From: Marinobacter bryozoorum
GTDB lineage: Bacteria; Pseudomonadota; Gammaproteobacteria; Pseudomonadales; Oleiphilaceae
NCBI RefSeq assembly: GCF_023156245.1
Contig: NZ_JAKZAH010000005.1
Coordinates: forward strand, 62,001 to 126,000
DNA: 64,000 nucleotides
Reading direction: 5' to 3'
Part shown: positions 9,398 through 56,682 of the stretch, one piece after another
Layout: every line of letters starts with the position of its first letter
Numbering within the stretch: the first letter of the stretch is position 1
The notes under the pieces: model-generated
What the model was told of the DNA's origin: nothing
The model's input: the letters and a program-made list of their open reading frames with translations, nothing else
The model's database searches: none
Program-made: the position numbers and the translations under genes

Positions 9398-10141
9398 TCA
9401 TGGTTGCACGAACCCCCGCAATCGCATCTCGATGGCGCGGGGATTCTCGCCTTCCGCGATGGCAATAATGCCATCAATCATCATGTCCTCGTACCGGGTC
9501 CGACGCCGCACAATTTCCCGCATCTTGTTGGCAATGGGAAAAAACAGCAGGTTGGCCAGGGCGACCCCGTATATGGTGGCCACGAAGGCGGTAGCAATAC
9601 CGGCACCGAGGGTGGAAGGGTCGGTCAGGTTGGTCATGACCTGGATCAGCCCCATAACCGCCCCGATAATACCGATGGTGGGCGAGTATCCCCCCATGGC
9701 TTCGAACACCTGGGCGGCCTCCAGGTCGCGCTGCTCCCGGGATTCCAGGTCCACTTCCAGCACGCTGCGAATGGTCTCGGTTTCGGCACCGTCCACCAGT
9801 AGCTGCAGGCCTTTGCGGGCAAAGGGTTCGGGCTCTTTCTCGGCGATGCCCTCGAGGCCGAGCAGGCCCTGTTTGCGGGCCTTGACGCTCCAGTCCATGA
9901 CCTTGCCCACGCCCTCCTCGAGGCCGATGTAAGGCGGGAAAAACACCCAGCGGGCCTGGCTGAAGGCCCGGCGGAGAAGGCCCGCGGATGTCTGCAGGAT
10001 GGTGGCGGCCAGGGTACCACCGACCACGATCAGTGCCGCCGGCAGGTTGAACAGGGAGGCCAGGGTGCCCCCTTCGAGCATATTGCCCCCCAGCAGCGCC
10101 GCAAAGGCTAGGATAATGCCCAGCAGGCTGAGGATATCCAT
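9398..10141 (-). CDS. motC: Flagellar motor stator protein MotC (MotA family)
   Basis: 247 residues with four predicted transmembrane helices. The family signature PTIGIIGAVMGLIQVMTNL lies in the third helix (about residues 154-172), and the cytoplasmic loop between helices 2 and 3 is charged (about residues 60-145). It conducts ions with MotD to drive rotor protein FliG. The start codon shares one base with the cheB stop (TGATG), so expression is coupled to cheB. The length is shorter than MotA of E. coli and typical for MotC/PomA-like stators. Confidence 0.93.
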   Translation of the reverse strand: MDILSLLGIILAFAALLGGNMLEGGTLASLFNLPAALIVVGGTLAATILQTSAGLLRRAFSQARWVFFPPYIGLEEGVGKVMDWSVKARKQGLLGLEGIAEKEPEPFARKGLQLLVDGAETETIRSVLEVDLESREQRDLEAAQVFEAMGGYSPTIGIIGAVMGLIQVMTNLTDPSTLGAGIATAFVATIYGVALANLLFFPIANKMREIVRRRTRYEDMMIDGIIAIAEGENPRAIEMRLRGFVQP

Positions 10142-11301
10142 CAGTGGACCCCTTCAACCAGGCGGGGCCCGACCTCGTCCAGGGGCAGGATTTCATCACT
10201 GAGCCCGGCCCGGGCAACAGCCATGGGCATGCCGTAGATCACCGAGGATTTTTCATCCTGGGACCAGATCACCGACCCGGTCTGTTTCATCATCCGGCTG
10301 CCTTCCTTGCCGTCTGCTCCCATACCAGTGAGGATCACGCCCAGGGTCTTGCCCGGGAAGCTGCGGGCCAGGGAGCCAAAGGTGACATCGACGCTGGGCT
10401 TGTAGTTGAGCCGGTCATCCCCGGGCAGGATACGCACCCTGCCCTGGCCGCCCCGGTTCTCGATCATCATCTGTTTGCCACCCGGTGCCAGCAGTGCCAG
10501 GCCCGGACGCAGCATATCGCCGTCCTCGGCCTGGCGAACCTGGATGCGGCAGAGTTTGTTCAGCCGCTCGGCGAAGGCCGGGGTGAAACTGCCGGGCATA
10601 TGCTGAACCAGCACCAGTGGCGCCGGGAAATTGGCAGGCAGGTTGACCAGTACCTTCTGCAGGGCGATAGGGCCGCCGGTGGAGGTGCCAATGGCCACCA
10701 CATCATAGTGACGGTTGGCCGTGCGGCGGCGAGCGGGGCGCGCCGGGGCACCTGGTTCCTGTCGCGACGCCGGGGGGGCAGCGGGCGCCTGGCGTGCGCT
10801 AACACGGCTGGATTCCTGTCGGTGTGCAGGAGGAGTGGCCGGGCGTGAGCCAGCCGGTGCATTCGGGGGCGTTGACGGCGCCTTACTACGGCCTGCCCGG
10901 GGGCTACTTCGGGCCACATCCAGTATACGCTGTCGCAGGATGCGCTGGAGCTCCGAACCGTCCTTGGCAATATCTTCGAAATTCTTCGGCAGGAAGTCGA
11001 CGGCACCGGCTTCCAGGGCATCCAGGGTTACCCGGGCGCCCTCGTAGGTCAGGGAGGAGAACATCAGTACCGGCGTCGGGCAGCGGCGCATGATTTCCTT
11101 CACCGCTGCAATACCATTCATCACCGGCATTTCATAATCCATGGTGATGACATCCGGGCGAAGCTTCTCCGCCATTTCCACGCCTTCACGGCCATTGGTG
11201 GCGGCGCCCACAACCTTGATGGTGCCGGAAGCGTTGAGAATTTCCGTCAGTCGCTTGCGGAAGAACCCGGAATCATCAACGACCAGCACAGAAACTGTCA
11301 T
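10141..11301 (-). CDS. cheB: Chemotaxis protein-glutamate methylesterase CheB
   Basis: 386 residues. The N-terminal receiver domain has acidic D9/D10, phospho-acceptor D55 (VITMDYEMPVMNG) and a conserved lysine in DFLPKNFED. A long linker of about 60 residues rich in P, A and R (about 140-195) leads to the methylesterase domain. The catalytic serine is in GTSTGGP, the histidine in QHMPGSFT and the aspartate in GMGADGKEG. Phosphorylation by CheA activates demethylation/deamidation of receptors, giving adaptation. No cheR is present in this window. The linker is longer than in the E. coli enzyme. Confidence 0.97.
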   Translation of the reverse strand: MTVSVLVVDDSGFFRKRLTEILNASGTIKVVGAATNGREGVEMAEKLRPDVITMDYEMPVMNGIAAVKEIMRRCPTPVLMFSSLTYEGARVTLDALEAGAVDFLPKNFEDIAKDGSELQRILRQRILDVARSSPRAGRSKAPSTPPNAPAGSRPATPPAHRQESSRVSARQAPAAPPASRQEPGAPARPARRRTANRHYDVVAIGTSTGGPIALQKVLVNLPANFPAPLVLVQHMPGSFTPAFAERLNKLCRIQVRQAEDGDMLRPGLALLAPGGKQMMIENRGGQGRVRILPGDDRLNYKPSVDVTFGSLARSFPGKTLGVILTGMGADGKEGSRMMKQTGSVIWSQDEKSSVIYGMPMAVARAGLSDEILPLDEVGPRLVEGVH

Positions 11302-48449: not shown

Positions 48450-51400
48450 TCAGAAGTCCCGGGTATAGAAGATATCCAGTGAAGACGCCAGCCCGCTGGC
48501 CGCCTCGACATAGAAGTAGCGGCCAAGGTCGTAGCGCAGGGCCACCGTGGTAATGGGTTCAAACAGGCCGACACCATAGCGCAGGCTGAGGTCTTCCGTA
48601 AGGTAGCCGCTGGCCACGACGGCAGCGTCGTCCCCGGAACCCTCGGCTTCCAGGGTCAGGTCCTGTATACCGAAGGCTTCGCCGATATCCCGGGTCAGGC
48701 CACTGGCGCGGTTGAGCCCCAGGGAGAGAGCGGCCCGGCTGACCTGGCCCTGGTCGCCCTGACTTTGCAGGGGCCGGCCCAGAATGACATAGGACAGTGC
48801 CTGGTCCTGGGACATCGGCGGCTCCGAAAACACCGCCGTGCGCGGTTCACTTGCCGGGCCGCTGAGGCGGATGCCCGCCACCACGTTGTCAACCCGCCGC
48901 ACGGCTTCGATATCCATGTAGGGTTCACCCACCGAACCCACGAACACCAGCCGTGCCTGCCGCAGCTCAAGCTCCTGGCCAAAAGCCTCGTAACGTCCCT
49001 CCACCAGCTGCAGGGCGCCGCGAGTGTCCATGTTGTTACCGATCCTCAGCTCCCCTTCGAGCTCGCCGGTGACCCCGAAACCGTCGAAGGTGACTTCATC
49101 CTCACCCACCACCACAGTCACGTCCATGTTCATGGAACGCACCGGCGGTGGCTCCGGTTCGCGGCCGACGATCACTTCGTCATCGGAGACGGTTACGGCC
49201 TGCTCCGGCAACTCCCGTACTTCGATCTGGCCCGTTGGCACGGCAACACGTCCGGCAATGGACAGGTCACCGTCCACAAAGCGCAGCTCCAGGTCCGGCG
49301 AAACCTTGAGCCGGGCATAGGGTTCGTAGTTGAGAGGCAGCTGGTCGCCTTCCAGTACCAGGGTAAGCACTGGCGAGCCCTCCCAGTCCAGGGCTCCGCC
49401 GATGTCACCACGCCCGCTACCGTTGCTCTGCCATGAGCCTTCGAGGGTGGCCCGTTTACCACTGAATGCCAGGCGAAGGTTCAGGTCAGACACGGGAATC
49501 GGCACCATCGGGTCAATCACACGACCGTCCGACAGCACCAGCTCGCCATTCACCCTGGGCTCCAGCAAGGGGCCTTCCAGGGTGCCGGAGCCTTCCACCA
49601 GGCCGCTCACCTCTTCCATGTTCAGCAAAGAGCCCACCATCGCCAGGTCAAAGCCGGTAAGGCTGAAGGTGCCGCTCGCGGGCCTGTCCTCAGCATTGGG
49701 GTCCACAGAGAGATCCACCGATAACGCACCCAGGCCCTCGCCATCCAGGCGAAGCACCACATTCGCCTGCTGGGGAGTGAGCTCGGCAGACAACGTCAGG
49801 GTCCGGTAGCTCAGGGTTTCCCAGTCCTCTTCCAGGACCACGTCCACTTCACCGGGCCCTGCTGACAACTGAACCTGTCCAACAGGGCCTTCATCCGTCA
49901 GCGTCAGCATCAGTGACGCGTTAATTGGCGCCTGCCAGCGGATGGTTTCCGGCAGCAGCGGCGCCAGGGCCGAGGCCGGGAGATTACTGATTTCCAGGTC
50001 CAGTGACGTATCCGGCACCAGTTCCTGGTCGCCGGCACACAACGTGCTGTCCTGCCAGCGCCAGCAATGGGCACCAAGCGTCAGGGTCCGGTCTTGCCAA
50101 CGGAGGTCAGCCGGTGCCTCAAGTTGCCAGCTCTGGTCCGGCTCCGGTAACCGCACCTGGCCATCGGCCAGCTGCCCCAGCCACTGGCCGCCCTCGTCCG
50201 CCAGCCAGGCGCCCGCCAGGGTCAAATCGAGAACCGCCTGGGGATGGCGTACCGCCAGGGTCAACTGATGGTCATCGAGGGTGCCGGTCAGGTCGGCCTG
50301 CACCTGCTCGACAAGCTGGCCTGCCGCCTGGATGGTATCAACCGCAACCGAGGCCTCCAGGGCCTGGTTTTCATCCAGCCGGGCGCTCAGTGCCAGGTCC
50401 CCTATACTCAACTGATCCTGCCAGGCCAGCCCTTCGCCCGAGGCCTCCAGGGTACCGGCGGGCGACAGCATGGAGCCGTTTACGGCAAATTCCCCCTGCA
50501 GGCGACCAGCCAGTTCCGGGTGCAGGGCTTGTGGCTGCCGGACATCCAGCTCACCTTCTATATCCAGCCCCGGTGCCTCACCTAACGGGTCCAGTAGCTG
50601 GCCAGACAGCGCCAGCCGGTTGTCACCGATCGTCGCCATTACCTCGGGAATCTGCCACCGCCTGTCCTCTGCGGTCAGTTCACCGCGACTGGTCAGCGGG
50701 GCCTCCCGCCACTGGCCATCCAGCTCCCAGGCAGCGGACAACTCCGGCTGGCCGTCCGCATCCAGCGCGCCTTCGGAGCGAATTGCCCCGTTAATACTGG
50801 CAGACGCCTCAGGTATCCAGTAGCCGGGATCAAACTGTTCCAGGGTGATCTCTCCCTGCCAGCTCAGGGCTTCGGCAAAGCCGACCTGAGCCTGCCCCTG
50901 AAGACGTCCGCCCCCCGTGGTCATGGTCAACTCGTCCAGGCGCACCTGCTCGAGGTCACCCTGAACCCGGGTGTCCAGGGTCGCATCACCCATGGGGCCG
51001 ACTGCATCCAGGTCTACCGTGGCGCTGTATGTGCCGTTACTGAACTCCCCCTGCGCCACCAGGGCGGTAATGGTGACCGGCGGCGGTGCTGTCCCGGGTA
51101 ACAGGCCATACCAGGCAAAGGCACCCATCTCGACGCTGGCCCGGGCAGTAAGCTGGTCCACCCAGCTTACTGCCCCGTCCAGGCGCAGCTCGGCCTGGCT
51201 GTCATCCACGGCCGAGGGACCTGTCAGGACCAGCTGCAGGTCACGGGCAGCCTCCTGTGTGATACGACCGGACAGATCCAGGCTTACGGGGCCTTCCTGC
51301 CCCGGCAACCGGGCCGTGGTGTTGATCTTATAGCCGCTGGCCAGGTTACCCCGCGCCTCAAGCTGCCAGTCCTGCAGAGTCAGGGTTTCAGGCAGGGAGC

Positions 51401-52202
51401 CCAGGGCGTGGAACGCATCCGAGCGGAATTCAGCACTGACCGGCAGCTCCGGGTTCAGCGGAGCTACCTCGGCCTGCAACAGACCCTCCAGGTAGCCACT
51501 GGAAGTCAACTCGGCCCGCAGGTCGCGCACACTGCCCCCTAACTGACCAGCGATGCGCCAGCGCTCCCCTTCCGGAGGCGGCAGGGCCAGGTCCACGTCC
51601 AGCGCCAGGGGCCAGTCACCCCGGGTTTCCAGGCGACCACTGACGACCACTGAAACCTCTTCCCGTGTCAGGGCGAGTTCGCGGATATGGAAATCCGCAC
51701 CGCCACCACTGCCCTGCAAGGTGAGCTGGTCCCACACCAGGGCCTCGTTGAAGTGGAACGTGCCGAGATCAACCGACCCGATGTCCAGGTTCACCGGTAG
51801 CCTGACATCAGGCAGTTGCACCGGGCCGGTCGTATCCTCCTCCTGGACGGTGCTGTCGGGCGTGCGGGTGACGTCGAGCGATGCCACCTCGAGGCGCTCA
51901 AGGCAGAAGGTTTTGCGGAACAGGCAGGTGGGCGACCAGTCGATAACGGGCGCCTCGGCAAACACCCTGACGCCATAGCCATTCCAGGACAGTTCAGAGG
52001 CCTGCCACTCACCCAGTAGCGAACCACTTGCCCCTTCAGTGACAAGCCCCGGAACCTGGTCCAATACCCAGGCAGTACCGGTGTCGGAGCGCAGCGCTGC
52101 CAGCAACGCACCGACCACAACCACCAGCAATACCAGCAGTATCAACAAGGTGATCAACAACCACTTGAGGGTTTTCGTCAATACACGGCTCACCCGGCTC
52201 AT
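48450..52202 (-). CDS. tamB: Translocation and assembly module protein TamB
   Basis: 1250 residues. One N-terminal transmembrane helix (about 10-33) anchors it in the inner membrane; a very long beta-taco of repeated strands spans the periplasm, ending in the TamB/DUF490 domain (about 900-1250) with GDLSIAGRVAVPTGQIEVRE and the C-terminal barrel-contacting end YYVEAASGL-like, SLDIFYTRDF. TamB works with TamA in outer-membrane protein and lipid transport. The ATG overlaps the tamA stop by four bases (ATGA). Confidence 0.95.
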   Translation of the reverse strand: MSRVSRVLTKTLKWLLITLLILLVLLVVVVGALLAALRSDTGTAWVLDQVPGLVTEGASGSLLGEWQASELSWNGYGVRVFAEAPVIDWSPTCLFRKTFCLERLEVASLDVTRTPDSTVQEEDTTGPVQLPDVRLPVNLDIGSVDLGTFHFNEALVWDQLTLQGSGGGADFHIRELALTREEVSVVVSGRLETRGDWPLALDVDLALPPPEGERWRIAGQLGGSVRDLRAELTSSGYLEGLLQAEVAPLNPELPVSAEFRSDAFHALGSLPETLTLQDWQLEARGNLASGYKINTTARLPGQEGPVSLDLSGRITQEAARDLQLVLTGPSAVDDSQAELRLDGAVSWVDQLTARASVEMGAFAWYGLLPGTAPPPVTITALVAQGEFSNGTYSATVDLDAVGPMGDATLDTRVQGDLEQVRLDELTMTTGGGRLQGQAQVGFAEALSWQGEITLEQFDPGYWIPEASASINGAIRSEGALDADGQPELSAAWELDGQWREAPLTSRGELTAEDRRWQIPEVMATIGDNRLALSGQLLDPLGEAPGLDIEGELDVRQPQALHPELAGRLQGEFAVNGSMLSPAGTLEASGEGLAWQDQLSIGDLALSARLDENQALEASVAVDTIQAAGQLVEQVQADLTGTLDDHQLTLAVRHPQAVLDLTLAGAWLADEGGQWLGQLADGQVRLPEPDQSWQLEAPADLRWQDRTLTLGAHCWRWQDSTLCAGDQELVPDTSLDLEISNLPASALAPLLPETIRWQAPINASLMLTLTDEGPVGQVQLSAGPGEVDVVLEEDWETLSYRTLTLSAELTPQQANVVLRLDGEGLGALSVDLSVDPNAEDRPASGTFSLTGFDLAMVGSLLNMEEVSGLVEGSGTLEGPLLEPRVNGELVLSDGRVIDPMVPIPVSDLNLRLAFSGKRATLEGSWQSNGSGRGDIGGALDWEGSPVLTLVLEGDQLPLNYEPYARLKVSPDLELRFVDGDLSIAGRVAVPTGQIEVRELPEQAVTVSDDEVIVGREPEPPPVRSMNMDVTVVVGEDEVTFDGFGVTGELEGELRIGNNMDTRGALQLVEGRYEAFGQELELRQARLVFVGSVGEPYMDIEAVRRVDNVVAGIRLSGPASEPRTAVFSEPPMSQDQALSYVILGRPLQSQGDQGQVSRAALSLGLNRASGLTRDIGEAFGIQDLTLEAEGSGDDAAVVASGYLTEDLSLRYGVGLFEPITTVALRYDLGRYFYVEAASGLASSLDIFYTRDF

Positions 52203-53953
52203 AGTTCAGGCCCCATTGAAAAGTGCAGGCGCCACCCGCCACCAAACTGCTCGTCCATGCCCCGGGCGATATCAAACCGGATAGGCCCAACCGGGCTGAT
52301 CCAGCGCACCCCGACACCGACACCCGTGGCCAGCGGATCGTTCAGGTTATCGATGGCGTTACCCTCATCAACAAAGGCCGCCAGGCGCCAGTTGTCCGCC
52401 ACCTGGTACTGATATTCCAGGCTGCCCACCAGCTGGTAGCGGCCGCCCACGGCGGTGCCATCACTGTTTTCCGGCGACAGGGTTTCGTAGCCATACCCCC
52501 GCACACTCTGGTCACCACCGGCGAAGAAACGCAGTGATGGCGGTACGTCAGAAAACCGGTTGGTGGCCACACCGGCAAGCTGGATACGCCCCAGGAAGCG
52601 ATGGTTATCCGCCAGGGTGATCAGCCCCTTGGCTTCCGAGTTGACGTGTAATACATCCACGGTGGAGAAGGCGTCGCGAAGGCCACCGGTTACATCGAGC
52701 TGCAACCGGTATCCACGGGACGGGTCGATAGGCGAATCGGCGTGGCGTTTGGAGAAGGCAACGCCCGGCATCAGCAGGCGCGTGTTACCTGAATCGGCAT
52801 TACCAATATCAAACCGCTCGTTCTCCCAACGCATGGAGAGTACGCGGGTCCAGCCATTATCCATCCGGTGACGCCATTGCTGGCCGATAGTGAACCGGTC
52901 TGACTGCACATCCTCGATGTCTTCCCGCTGGTAACCGGCGGACAGGCGAATGGAATCCGTCATCGGCGGATCCAGGGGCAGTTCGTACCAGCCGGTAATG
53001 TTCTGGCGAGGTGCCGACAGCTCGGTCTCCGCACCCCGGCGATGCCCCCATTCATTCACCCAATGCTCCGTCCAGGTGCCGCGGAAACGAGGGCCCACAT
53101 CGGTTGAGAAGCCCACACCAGCCGCAACGGAACGGGGGTCACGCTCACTGACCCGGGCCGTAACCGGGATGGTGCCGTCTTCCGCTTCCATTGGCGGTGC
53201 GGTGACCAGCACCTGTTCAAAATAGCCGCTGTTGGAAAGGTCTGAACTCAGCTCGGCTACCTTATCCGCGTGGTACGGGGTACCTGGCTCAATCTGCACA
53301 AACCGGCGCAGCAGCGACTGGTCAAACACATGGTCTTCGTTGAAAGTCACCGCCCCCAGTCGATAGCGCTCGCCACTGTCGAAGTGCAGCAGGATATCCG
53401 CCTCACGGGTCTCCGGGTTCACCCTGAGGGTATGCTCCCGGAATTCACCATCAAAGTACCCGAAACGGGACGCCCGGCTGCTGATCACCTGCCGCAGGGC
53501 GTCGTATTCGCCATGATTGAGGATATCGCCCTGTGACGGACGTTCCGGCAGGTTGGAGGTGAACCCCGAATCTTCGGAGGCAGGGCCGGTGATGCTGACA
53601 CTGCGGGATGCGACCCGCACCGGCTCCCCGGGCACCACCTCCAGTATCAGTACCGGGGGGTCACCATCCTGGATACGGCGGGTGATAGCGGGACTGTAAT
53701 AACCCAGGGCGCGCAACGCCTCACGGACCTGTTCCTCTGCCGTGCGGCCATAACGACGCAACGCCGGGCGGCTGCGGTTTTCGACTTCACCCACAAAGGC
53801 ACGGGCATTCTGCAGCAGCTGGGGGTAATCCCCCTCCATGCGGATATCCACCTGGTTGGCACTTGCCACTGGAGCCATCGCCACTACCAGCCAGGCGCTC
53901 AGCCAGCTTCGGATACCGCGGGGATAACGCCCTGGTGTATGAATGAATCGCAA
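52199..53953 (-). CDS. tamA: Translocation and assembly module protein TamA (Omp85 family)
   Basis: 584 residues. Signal peptide (about 1-33, ending ASA before NQVDIRM), three POTRA domains (about 35-270) and a 16-strand beta barrel. The Omp85 signature is visible as LRFFAGGDQSVRGYGYETLS (about 483-502), and the closing PVGPIRFDIARGMDEQ is typical. TamA sits in the outer membrane and partners TamB. The gene is divergent from the voltage-sensor-like gene at 54054. Confidence 0.96.
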   Translation of the reverse strand: MRFIHTPGRYPRGIRSWLSAWLVVAMAPVASANQVDIRMEGDYPQLLQNARAFVGEVENRSRPALRRYGRTAEEQVREALRALGYYSPAITRRIQDGDPPVLILEVVPGEPVRVASRSVSITGPASEDSGFTSNLPERPSQGDILNHGEYDALRQVISSRASRFGYFDGEFREHTLRVNPETREADILLHFDSGERYRLGAVTFNEDHVFDQSLLRRFVQIEPGTPYHADKVAELSSDLSNSGYFEQVLVTAPPMEAEDGTIPVTARVSERDPRSVAAGVGFSTDVGPRFRGTWTEHWVNEWGHRRGAETELSAPRQNITGWYELPLDPPMTDSIRLSAGYQREDIEDVQSDRFTIGQQWRHRMDNGWTRVLSMRWENERFDIGNADSGNTRLLMPGVAFSKRHADSPIDPSRGYRLQLDVTGGLRDAFSTVDVLHVNSEAKGLITLADNHRFLGRIQLAGVATNRFSDVPPSLRFFAGGDQSVRGYGYETLSPENSDGTAVGGRYQLVGSLEYQYQVADNWRLAAFVDEGNAIDNLNDPLATGVGVGVRWISPVGPIRFDIARGMDEQFGGGWRLHFSMGPEL

Positions 53954-54053
53954 ATCCTGCTCCGCTTGCCAACGCCCCCCTGTCTGGCTGCCTGCCGAGG
54001 TTCGTCGTGGACGTTCAAATACGCTAGTCTGTTAGAAAGAGTCTGACAACACC

Positions 54054-55166
54054 ATGAATCGGCGGCAAATACTGATCGCCATGACTGTTGGCGGACCGTT
54101 TTACAACCAACCAGGTCACCAGGGGAGTCATAGCCAGCGGATGTTCACCATCAACCGGGAGAATCTCAAAAGAAGCCATCAGAGCATCTGGTTTATCGTC
54201 GACTTCGTGATGCTCGGCCTGCTCATCCTCAACCTGTCGCTGATTATCTTCGATTCCATCTACAGCTTTGCGGCAATCCAGGACTTTTTCCAGCAGTCCC
54301 TGCCCGCATTCTACAACGCCTACCACCCGGTACACCGCAATTTCATTTTCTATGACCTGATCTTCGTCGGTATCTTCCTGACTGAGTTCCTCGTGCGCTG
54401 GCTGTATGCAATCCGGATAGGGCTCTATCAGCGCTGGTACTTCTACCCGTTTATCCACTGGTACGACCTGCTTGGCTGCATACCTACCAGCGGCATGCGC
54501 TTCCTGCGGGTGCTGCGTGTGATCAGCATTGCGTACCGCCTGCACCGCTATGGCATCATCGATTTTACGCAAACAAAGCTTTACCGGTTCCTCGCTTTCT
54601 ATTACGAAGCCTTTATGGAAGAGCTGTCGGACCGGATCGTGCTGAAGGTTCTGTCCGGTATGCAGGAAGAGGTGCGCCGAGGCTCTCCACTGCTGGATCG
54701 CATCGAACACGAGATCATCCTGCCCCGCAAGGACATCCTGGTGGGCTGGATATCCGACCGGGTGGCAGACCTGGCCAACGAGGGCTACGTACCCAACCGG
54801 GATGCCCTGCGCCGGTATATGGAGCAACGCATCAGCGAAGCCATCCGACAGAATCCGGAACTCTCCCGGCTCAAGTTGTTGCCCATTTTCGGCAACCAGG
54901 TGCGTGGCACTCTGGAAGAGGCCATCGGCGACATCACGGCCAATATCCTCAACCAGGTGATGGACGACCTGTCCAGCAGTCGCAACCATGACTTCATTGC
55001 CGACCTGGTGGATGTGTTCATGCCGCAAACCAGGACCTTCAACGCCACCGGAGAACCCGAACTGCCCCGCCGCCAGGACAATGAGGTACTGATCAACCTG
55101 ACACTGGAAATCATTGACGCTATAAAGGACCAGGTTCACCACAAACGGTGGCGTGAGGAACTCTGA
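54054..55166 (+). CDS. Voltage-sensor-like four-helix membrane protein without a pore domain
   Basis: 370 residues. Hydrophobic helices at about 45-70, 98-120 and 131-145 and an arginine-rich fourth helix at 148-165 (MRFLRVLRVISIAYRLHR, with R at 149, 152, 155, 162 and 165) follow the S1-S4 plan of voltage-gated channels. Acidic residues D101 and E111 in S2 and D138 in S3 sit where countercharges are expected. No S5-pore-S6 region follows; residues 166-370 are hydrophilic and helical. Nucleotide-binding or phosphatase motifs are not seen. Start codons at 54054, 54081 and 54141 are all possible since no strong Shine-Dalgarno is visible. It lies 25 bases ahead of an amidase gene. Function unknown. 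Confidence 0.7.
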   Translation: MNRRQILIAMTVGGPFYNQPGHQGSHSQRMFTINRENLKRSHQSIWFIVDFVMLGLLILNLSLIIFDSIYSFAAIQDFFQQSLPAFYNAYHPVHRNFIFYDLIFVGIFLTEFLVRWLYAIRIGLYQRWYFYPFIHWYDLLGCIPTSGMRFLRVLRVISIAYRLHRYGIIDFTQTKLYRFLAFYYEAFMEELSDRIVLKVLSGMQEEVRRGSPLLDRIEHEIILPRKDILVGWISDRVADLANEGYVPNRDALRRYMEQRISEAIRQNPELSRLKLLPIFGNQVRGTLEEAIGDITANILNQVMDDLSSSRNHDFIADLVDVFMPQTRTFNATGEPELPRRQDNEVLINLTLEIIDAIKDQVHHKRWREEL

Positions 55167-55191
55167 CCCCGCCACGACCTGGGAGACGTAC

Positions 55192-56682
55192 ATGGTCCAA
55201 CCGCTGCATTACCACACGGCATCCCGACTGCTGCGGCTGATGGAAGCCGGCGAGCTGACCAGTGAGGCCCTGACCCGGTCGCTGCTCCAGCGCATTGAAG
55301 AGCACAACCCCGCCCTCAACGCTGTTATCGACCTGGACCGGGAGCGCGCCCTGACCCTGGCCAGGGAGGCGGACCGTCAGCGCCAGGCCGGCGAGCCCTG
55401 CAGCCCCCTGCACGGCCTGCCCATGACCGTGAAAGACACCTGGGAAGTGCCCGGCCTGGGTTGCTGCGCCGGCGCGCCGGTGCTCTCAGGCTATCAGCCG
55501 GAACAACCGGCGGACGTCATCCGGCGACTGCAGGACGCCGGTGCCATTATCATTGGCAAGACCAATGTCCCCTACTACGCCTCCGACATCCAGACCTACA
55601 ACCGGGTGTACGGCACCACCAGTAACCCCTGGAACCGTGACCATACCCCTGGCGGCTCGTCCGGTGGATCCGCTGCGGCGCTGGCCAGCGGCATGACGCC
55701 CCTGGAAGTAGGCAGCGACCTGGCCGGCTCCATTCGCACACCAGCCCATTTCTGCGGCGTGTTCGGCCACAAGCCCAGTCGCACACTGGTGTCCTTTCGT
55801 GGCCATATCCCCGGCCCGCCGGGCACCATCAGCCAGCCGGACCTGGCGGAAGGTGGCCCCATGGCGCGCTCGGCAACAGACCTGGAACTGCTGCTCAATA
55901 TCATCGCAGGCCCCCGCCCCCACCTGGCCCGCAGCTGGCAACTGAACATGGCGCCGGCAGCCATTAAAAGCCTGCCCGAAGCCCGCATCGGCCTCTGGCT
56001 GGAAGATCCGCAATGCCCGGTGGACCATGAGCTGACCAACGGCTACCGGAAACTGGCTGACGCCCTGACCAGCCAGGGCGCCATGGTCACTGACCTGCAG
56101 CATCCGCTATTGTCGCTGGCCCATATCATGCCGGCCTACTTCAACCTTCTGGGCAGCCTGCTGGGCAGTGGCATGACCAACAGCCAGAAGCGACGTCTCA
56201 AGCTCTTCGCCCTGGCAGAAAAACCCCTGCGCCGGGTAACACCCATGACCTGGGGCATGGCGGAATTCGCCCGGGGAACCAGCCAGACCATCAGTCACTG
56301 GATGCACTGGAACGAAACCCGGGAGAAGATGCGGGAGCAGGTAGAAGAGATTTTCCGGGAAGTGGACGTCATCCTGGCGCCGGTAAATCCGGTCACCGCC
56401 ATCCCCCACGATCAGAGCGACCCGCCCTTTCGCCGCCTGATCCGTGTCAACGACGAGAACCGGCCCTATCACGACCAGTTCTGCTGGATTGCCCTCGCCA
56501 CGCTGCTGGGGCTGCCTGCCACCTCCGTTCCGATTGGCGTGACCACTGCCGGACTGCCCTACAGTATTCAGGTAATCGGTGCGCCAGGCATGGACCTGAC
56601 CACTTTGGGGTTCGCACGCTTACTGGAAGAAGAAGGGTTCGCCGGCTTCAGAACGCCGCCGGGGTATTCGGAGGAAACGTAG
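55192..56682 (+). CDS. Amidase signature family enzyme
   Basis: 496 residues, no signal peptide. The Ser-cisSer-Lys triad is complete: K81 in LPMTVKDTWEV, S156 in HTPGGSSGGSAAALASG and S180 in GSDLAGSIRTP. It hydrolyses an amide; the natural substrate cannot be told from sequence, and it does not look like GatA because no gatB or gatC is nearby. The ATG at 55192 has GGGAG six bases upstream. It follows the voltage-sensor-like gene by 25 bases, suggesting a shared transcript, and converges with the TRAP binding protein gene. Confidence 0.9.
   Translation: MVQPLHYHTASRLLRLMEAGELTSEALTRSLLQRIEEHNPALNAVIDLDRERALTLAREADRQRQAGEPCSPLHGLPMTVKDTWEVPGLGCCAGAPVLSGYQPEQPADVIRRLQDAGAIIIGKTNVPYYASDIQTYNRVYGTTSNPWNRDHTPGGSSGGSAAALASGMTPLEVGSDLAGSIRTPAHFCGVFGHKPSRTLVSFRGHIPGPPGTISQPDLAEGGPMARSATDLELLLNIIAGPRPHLARSWQLNMAPAAIKSLPEARIGLWLEDPQCPVDHELTNGYRKLADALTSQGAMVTDLQHPLLSLAHIMPAYFNLLGSLLGSGMTNSQKRRLKLFALAEKPLRRVTPMTWGMAEFARGTSQTISHWMHWNETREKMREQVEEIFREVDVILAPVNPVTAIPHDQSDPPFRRLIRVNDENRPYHDQFCWIALATLLGLPATSVPIGVTTAGLPYSIQVIGAPGMDLTTLGFARLLEEEGFAGFRTPPGYSEET

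Follow-up and report, generated by a model that had tools for sequence, protein, structure and literature searches.

Can a bacterium possess a voltage sensor that serves no pore? This question is raised by an open reading frame in a stretch of 64,000 nucleotides of Marinobacter bryozoorum DNA (the window). An earlier note, made from the letters alone, had read its product as a voltage-sensor-only membrane protein with a cytoplasmic domain of a new kind. According to the accessible part of a 2023 review, all prokaryotic voltage-sensor domains (VSDs) come with a pore (PMC10377628). The contexts in which VSDs are found, as far as the available part of another paper names them, are Hv, Kv, phosphatase and solute transporter (PMC12332018).

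Gene and start codon

The frame of 370 codons at 54054-55166 on the forward strand is present as described, with all of the residues named in the earlier note in their places. Its start at 54054 is most likely 29 codons too early. Judged from the alignment of homologues, the gene most likely starts at the ATG at 54141 and encodes 341 amino acids, because the homologues' ATG is aligned with this codon in 81 of 100 loci and lies only 1-5 codons away in 18 more. The last of the 100 loci is cut at its own start. The set includes near-duplicates and the window's own locus. All numbering below is counted from 54141, where the ATG is M30 of the earlier numbering. Hence R149, R152, R155, R162 and R165 become R120, R123, R126, R133 and R136, and D101, E111 and D138 become D72, E82 and D109.

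To judge from its codon changes, the frame is coding and the gene is real, because the differences from the M. segnicrescens gene, the nearest named relative (91%), are mostly third-position and synonymous. Over 341 codons there are 29, 7 and 90 changes at codon positions 1, 2 and 3 (90 of 126 at the third position), and of the codons that differ, 85 are synonymous and 30 replacement. The frame of 389 amino acids on the other strand (54024-55193) is not a gene; it is interrupted in 75 of 80 relatives. The coordinates of all features are collected in Table 1.

Table 1. Parts of the pore-less VSD gene and neighboring genes discussed in the text
Feature	Position	Strand	Basis or remark
Pore-less VSD gene, 341 aa	54141..55166, stop included	+	Start alignment (most likely start), codon changes, antisense check
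S1, residues 15-41	54183..54263	+	Model helix 15-41; N31, outer acidic D38 by conservation
S2, residues 68-93	54342..54419	+	Model and conservation; D72, aromatic F79, E82, invariant W87
S3, residues 99-116	54435..54488	+	HWYDLLGCIP, D109; short outer half
S4, residues 117-136	54489..54548	+	Model helix 117-136; R120, R123, R126, R133
Cytoplasmic C-terminal domain, residues 144-341 (helical, predicted)	54570..55163	+	No known family
YYxxxxEELSDRxVxxVL segment, residues 154-171	54600..54653	+	Proposed coupler from S4 to output domain
Amidase-family gene	55192..56682	+	PF01425; directly downstream, a neighbor and not a proven part
Exo_endo_phos loci	L193, L195, L196, L197, L201, L209, L213		Pfam on three, the rest by BLAST cluster

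A voltage-sensor domain homologous to those of channels

For the family as a whole we aligned the window protein with 54 relatives that are 23-64% identical to it. Out of 68 distinct matching frames, the 60 with more than 100 bits were taken, a set without the window's own copy, a truncated second copy at locus L102 and a protein that consists of the C-terminal domain only (L210). Six near relatives (L175-L179, L181) were then removed and the window protein was added, which gives 55 rows. Counts over these 55 members exclude the short forms described below and one fragment (L112).

On the strength of sequence homology, residues 15-136 are an S1-S4 VSD that shares descent with the VSDs of voltage-gated channels. 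We conclude this because a profile comparison scores above its controls, because the matches outside the family are themselves VSD proteins, because Ion_trans turns up more often than any other family among the weak Pfam matches and because a short sister form matches Ion_trans over S1-S4. Compared with 21 Ion_trans channels of the class, the VSD profile of the 55 members reaches an hhalign score of 55.3 (P 5.8e-8), against 25.0 for the reversed control and 23.6 for the best of 50 column shuffles. A profile of 15 sequences scores 50.6 against the same 21 channels, where the reversed control reaches 25.1 and none of 20 shuffles exceeds 20.6.

At E<=0.1, a search of 143 genomes of the class with the VSD-only profile gives 12 match rows, of which three are full-length family members and one is the L112 fragment, which covers about 36 positions. 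Five lie outside the family, with E between 1e-5 and 0.0095. One is a Kv channel whose filter reads TVGYGD (L282), three are Nav-type channels of bacteria (L276-L278) and one is a short sister form (L275), with the types read from the sequences. The remaining three, at E 0.075-0.09, are unrelated. Since E is given per genome, about 1.4 chance matches are expected at 0.01 over 143 genomes; none of the five is of any other kind. The full-length family profile also matches pore-bearing channels over S2-S4 at E of about 1e-5. Three such matches were checked and each carries Pfam Ion_trans and Ion_trans_2; two more weak ones are unchecked. The profile check against voltage-sensor families that the earlier note had proposed supports its reading, with only channels or the short sister form appearing outside the family at E<=0.01.

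At E<=0.1, Ion_trans is found in 13 of the 55 members, with 0.0008 as the best value, and the next Pfam family in five. The window protein is not among the 13, and Pfam finds no Ion_trans in it even at E<=10. It does not meet the full-length Ion_trans gathering score of 25 bits, and the best that any member achieves is the E of 0.0008. A PDB search with the VSD-only profile gave nothing at E<=10.

The short sister form (L259:680-1459, reverse strand) has 260 amino acids, with a VSD, a shorter helical tail and no pore. Its Pfam Ion_trans match of 24.6 bits covers S1-S4 only and is just under the cut-off of 25. Another representative (L169:1387-2037, reverse strand) is 53% identical to L259 and matches the family profile at E 1.7e-10; when trimmed, it has no Pfam Ion_trans match. 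Searching 274 genomes of the class with the sister form returned one full-length match, its own.

The residue pattern is that of a VSD: arginines at every third residue in S4, acidic residues in S2 and S3, and an aromatic residue in S2. The arginines are almost invariant (R120 in 54, R123 and R126 in all 55, R133 in 54 of the 55 aligned members), and L122 is found in at least 90% of the family. D38 is kept in 53 of 55. Position 72 is D in 49 members, E in one and G in five; position 82 is E in 39 and D in 16; position 109 is D in 48 and E in seven. Position 79 is aromatic in 48 (F 38, Y 9, W 1) and L in seven. The S4 arginines and acidic residues listed in the earlier note are where it placed them; of these, R120, R123, R126 and R133 and an acidic residue at 72, 82 and 109 are kept in 50-55 of the 55 members. 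Position 31 is Asn in 48 members, including the window protein, Asp in five and Ser in two. S3 has the lowest mean entropy (0.69) of 13 segments compared.

The spacings of D72, F79 and E82 in S2 (7 and 10) and of N31 and D38 in S1 (7) equal those of a Nav-type channel (L123). In NavAb the N49-E59 spacing is 10, according to the accessible part of PMC13095418. From D109 to the first S4 arginine there are 11 residues, 8 fewer than the 19 in L123, and therefore the outer S3-S4 paddle is missing. The S4 series ends after three regular arginines, and the fourth place (129) is Ser in 41 of 55 members. The N-terminus, the S2-S3 loop and the stretch after S4 contain basic residues, which suggests, by inference, an N-in/C-in topology.

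No pore

As far as can be read from the sequence, the window protein is without a pore. In 19-residue segments taken at every fourth residue, hydropathy reaches 2.27 in S1 and 1.89 in S2 and is weak in S3 and S4; from residue 137 on, no segment exceeds 0.44. Hence there is no S5, pore or S6. Reading by eye through the relatives displayed (one in two of the 55), we saw no S5-pore-S6 either. Both the absence of S5-S6 and the description as a voltage-sensor-only protein consequently stand.

The predicted structure, from which the limits of S1-S4 are taken, is weak, with a mean pLDDT of 58 (a fair 76-85 over residues 21-90, a weaker 55-69 over 101-140 and at most 58 from 151 on); an earlier model from 20 sequences was poorer still (49.5). 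With this weak model Foldseek found no significant match (best E 0.76), and 9 of its 12 matches at E<=10, none of them significant, are voltage-gated or TRP channels. Realignment with VIA-align 2, which covered only Foldseek's own top 65 chains, places NavAb first (Z 8.1, rmsd 4.2, 106 aligned, model residues 11-141). Among the best 50 realigned chains, ranks 1-46 are channels or transporters that carry S1-S4 domains, and four unrelated chains stand at the foot (Z 4.1-5.0). For helical bundles, a Z below about 13 may reflect no more than a common arrangement. The NavAb alignment, at Z 8.1, therefore counts as agreement and not as proof of a four-helix membrane bundle that includes S4.

The C-terminal domain and a relative without a sensor

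The structure model predicts, with low confidence, that residues 144-341 are helical. No Pfam family is consistent across the 55 members for this domain, and no consistent PDB relative was found by sequence or profile. The proposal of a C-terminal domain of about 200 residues and of a new kind is thereby borne out. Several weak candidates were rejected. PDB profile matches of the whole protein, none better than E 0.049, are to designed helical proteins, TEL2 and similar ones. The best single-sequence PDB match, ribosomal uS4 (E 0.007, over 157-214), is not repeated by the profile, and weak Pfam matches to ARM-repeat families and MMS19 are not consistent from member to member (MMS19_C in 2 of 55). 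The domain resembles DUF445 (PF04286) in being helical, and three of the 55 members have weak matches to it, the best at 0.0092. Its profile scores with four DUF445 sets, 21.0-23.4, exceed those of 20 shuffles (at most 17.3-19.8) but stay under the reversed control for each of the four sets (21.6-28.7). Hence DUF445 fails as the fold of this domain.

Conservation within the C-terminal domain is highest in the helix that directly follows S4 (YYxxxxEELSDR), with E160 in 55, E161 in 52, S163 in 54, D164 in 54 and R165 in 53 of 55 members.

One genome (G796) contains the C-terminal domain by itself, as a protein of 181 amino acids (L210:6854-7396, reverse strand) that matches the family profile with 113 bits over model positions 168-334. 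No VSD lies in the 0.8 kb upstream, whichever of the three frames on this strand is read. The site is syntenic with the full gene of locus L202: a nitroreductase-like gene downstream and a gene of unknown function upstream are both related to those of L202. Broader profiles find this protein and a genus-specific one misses it. EELSDR is replaced by NNQISNH. Because the domain stands alone at a syntenic site from which the VSD has gone, its sequence context points to an output module. We read the case as an output domain that works without its sensor and whose coupler decays once the sensor is gone. It is a single case, in a fragmented assembly of 190 contigs.

Distribution and gene neighborhood

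Almost every Marinobacter genome sampled has a member of the family, and its occurrence across the order is patchy. It occurs in 25 of 25 genomes in one sample of the genus and in 11 of 12 in another; the one genome without a member (G893) is also negative with a genus-specific profile. In the order it is found in 68 of 293 genomes, including the one with the C-terminal domain only and one with a short form (G471), in the class in 10 of 369 (one of them a fragment) and in the phylum in 20 of 398; the samples overlap. Three scans of viral contigs found no relative.

Two observations concern single loci. Genome G004 has two copies (L102:4061-4885 and 10136-11179, both on the reverse strand); its second copy matches the first two thirds only and departs after residue ~220. 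A Marinobacter-like copy (62%) lies on a contig labeled Rhodopirellula (L069:17-952, forward strand), which we infer is probably mis-binned.

An amidase gene lies 3' of the VSD gene in 6 of 9 Marinobacter loci and is also adjacent in L214 and L215; the two genes are possibly co-transcribed. Upstream, on the other strand, a tamA-like gene is found in 9 of 9 Marinobacter loci, with two other frames in between in four of them. In the window itself, 48450-53953 on the reverse strand holds tamA (Omp85/POTRA_TamA) and a gene for a protein of 1250 amino acids, which is presumably TamB, both divergent from the VSD gene. At seven loci in two families an Exo_endo_phos-like gene lies at most 23 bases upstream of the VSD gene, touches it or overlaps it. 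We do not claim a link to phosphatases from this neighbor, as it occurs in two families only. Other neighbors are an acyltransferase and MinC (in the f15 branch), a cobalamin adenosyltransferase, a LysM/transglycosylase gene and a thioesterase. The survey of the homologues' neighbors found none common to the whole family. Neighbors are lineage-specific and therefore no partner is claimed.

Discussion

What could a voltage sensor without a pore do in a bacterium? The explanation that we favor, and hold to be probable with considerable room for doubt, is a stand-alone VSD joined to a helical cytoplasmic output domain of a new kind, which would make the protein an electrical switch, in a bacterium, rather than a channel. 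The sequences establish the gene itself, the homology of its VSD, the conservation of the sensor residues, the lack of a pore, a C-terminal domain of no known class and one natural instance of that domain by itself; the voltage response, its coupling and the output are inferred. Upon depolarization R120, R123 and R126 would move through a transfer center made up of F79, E82 and D109, while D38 and D72 would act as outer countercharges. The conserved EELSDR helix just after S4 could pass the movement on, and the C-terminal domain might then change its assembly or its binding to a partner or the membrane. Of the two suggestions in the earlier note, a voltage-coupled output or a proton pathway, the former is thus our preferred inference and the latter has become weaker for this protein. 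There are points against a switch as well. We have no electrical or biochemical evidence, five members carry Gly at position 72, the S3-S4 paddle is missing and S4 has only three regular arginines. The window protein itself lacks an Ion_trans match, the structure model is weak, no neighbor is common to the family, and the C-terminal domain on its own is known from one fragmented genome.

One could also argue that the VSD fold is only a membrane anchor or assembly platform, with a C-terminal domain that is constitutively active at the membrane. Ion-channel S1-S4 domains that have stopped sensing voltage are a precedent, the lost paddle and the mere three regular arginines fit, and in one genome the C-terminal domain exists without the VSD, which is hence dispensable there. 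However, between 50 and 55 of the 55 members, whose identity to the window protein falls as low as 23%, retain R120, R123, R126 and their acidic partners. Such conservation of buried charges argues against a mere anchor, which would not need them, and we consider this explanation unlikely, if still worth taking seriously. The accessory subunit of a pore-bearing channel, whose voltage dependence it would adjust, is harder still to believe in, and is the alternative to which we give least credit. The window's genome does encode one Ion_trans channel (G000:C94:162156-162812, forward strand), its only Ion_trans match, which covers nearly the whole model. It lies on another contig. No channel is found among the neighbors put through Pfam, which were a selection.

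There remains conduction of protons or cations by the VSD itself, as in Hv1, with the C-terminal domain as an oligomerization tail. The window protein is like Hv1 in having a VSD without a pore and three S4 arginines. It differs in being bacterial, in its helical domain of about 200 residues and in carrying N31 where Hv1 has its S1 selectivity Asp. The role of this residue, D112, is treated in the accessible parts of PMC7059764 and PMC5938591. Our register for position 31 is inferred by way of the Nav S1, without a direct alignment to Hv1. The S4 motif of Hv1, RxWRxxR (given in the available part of PMC8804609), is absent, and the window protein reads RFLRVLR instead. Five of the 55 members do have Asp at position 31, all of them in the f15 branch (L205, L206, L207, L208 and L168), together with Gly at 72 and Glu in S3; the sixth f15 member (L204) has Asn. 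From these residues it is possible that f15 is a proton-conducting branch, which we offer as a lead only. For the family, Asn in 48 of 55 members speaks against conduction, and a tail that survives alone without the VSD is hard to square with mere oligomerization. We therefore think it quite improbable that conduction explains the window protein.

The favored switch can be set beside known systems. The S1-S4 domains of BacNav and Kv channels (Ion_trans) are homologous, with the same spacings in S1 and S2, the S3 Asp and the S4 RxxRxxR, whereas the window protein lacks S5-pore-S6 and has the new C-terminal domain. The proposed logic is that of Ci-VSP, a VSD joined to a cytoplasmic domain. Unlike the PTEN-like catalytic domain of voltage-sensing phosphatases, with its active-site Cys, the C-terminal domain matches no phosphatase in Pfam, and there is no Cys after residue 113. 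SLC9C1, the sperm Na+/H+ exchanger, likewise couples a VSD to a module that is not a pore, and 8pd9 is among the structural matches; the window protein has no transporter domain.

In the literature we found no report of a prokaryotic VSD without a pore, with incomplete coverage in which most subscription journals are left out. As far as we could find, this is the first bacterial family of VSD proteins that lack a pore and carry an unclassified output domain. It contradicts the statement on pores of prokaryotic VSDs in the accessible part of the 2023 review (PMC10377628). A bolder reading, tentative and in our view somewhat short of an even chance, is that we are looking at the first family in bacteria of voltage-gated effectors other than channels, in which S4 would move, EELSDR would switch the output domain and f15 might conduct protons. 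By analogy, the family might then be the prokaryotic counterpart of the voltage-sensing phosphatases.

If f15 does conduct protons, conduction of the Hv1 type is either older than the eukaryotes or convergent. A bacterial family without pores reopens the question of how often sensors have parted from their pores. Through it, membrane potential would act directly in the bacterial cytoplasm without any flux of ions, and the question of what a bare voltage sensor can drive can be put to a small, culturable system.
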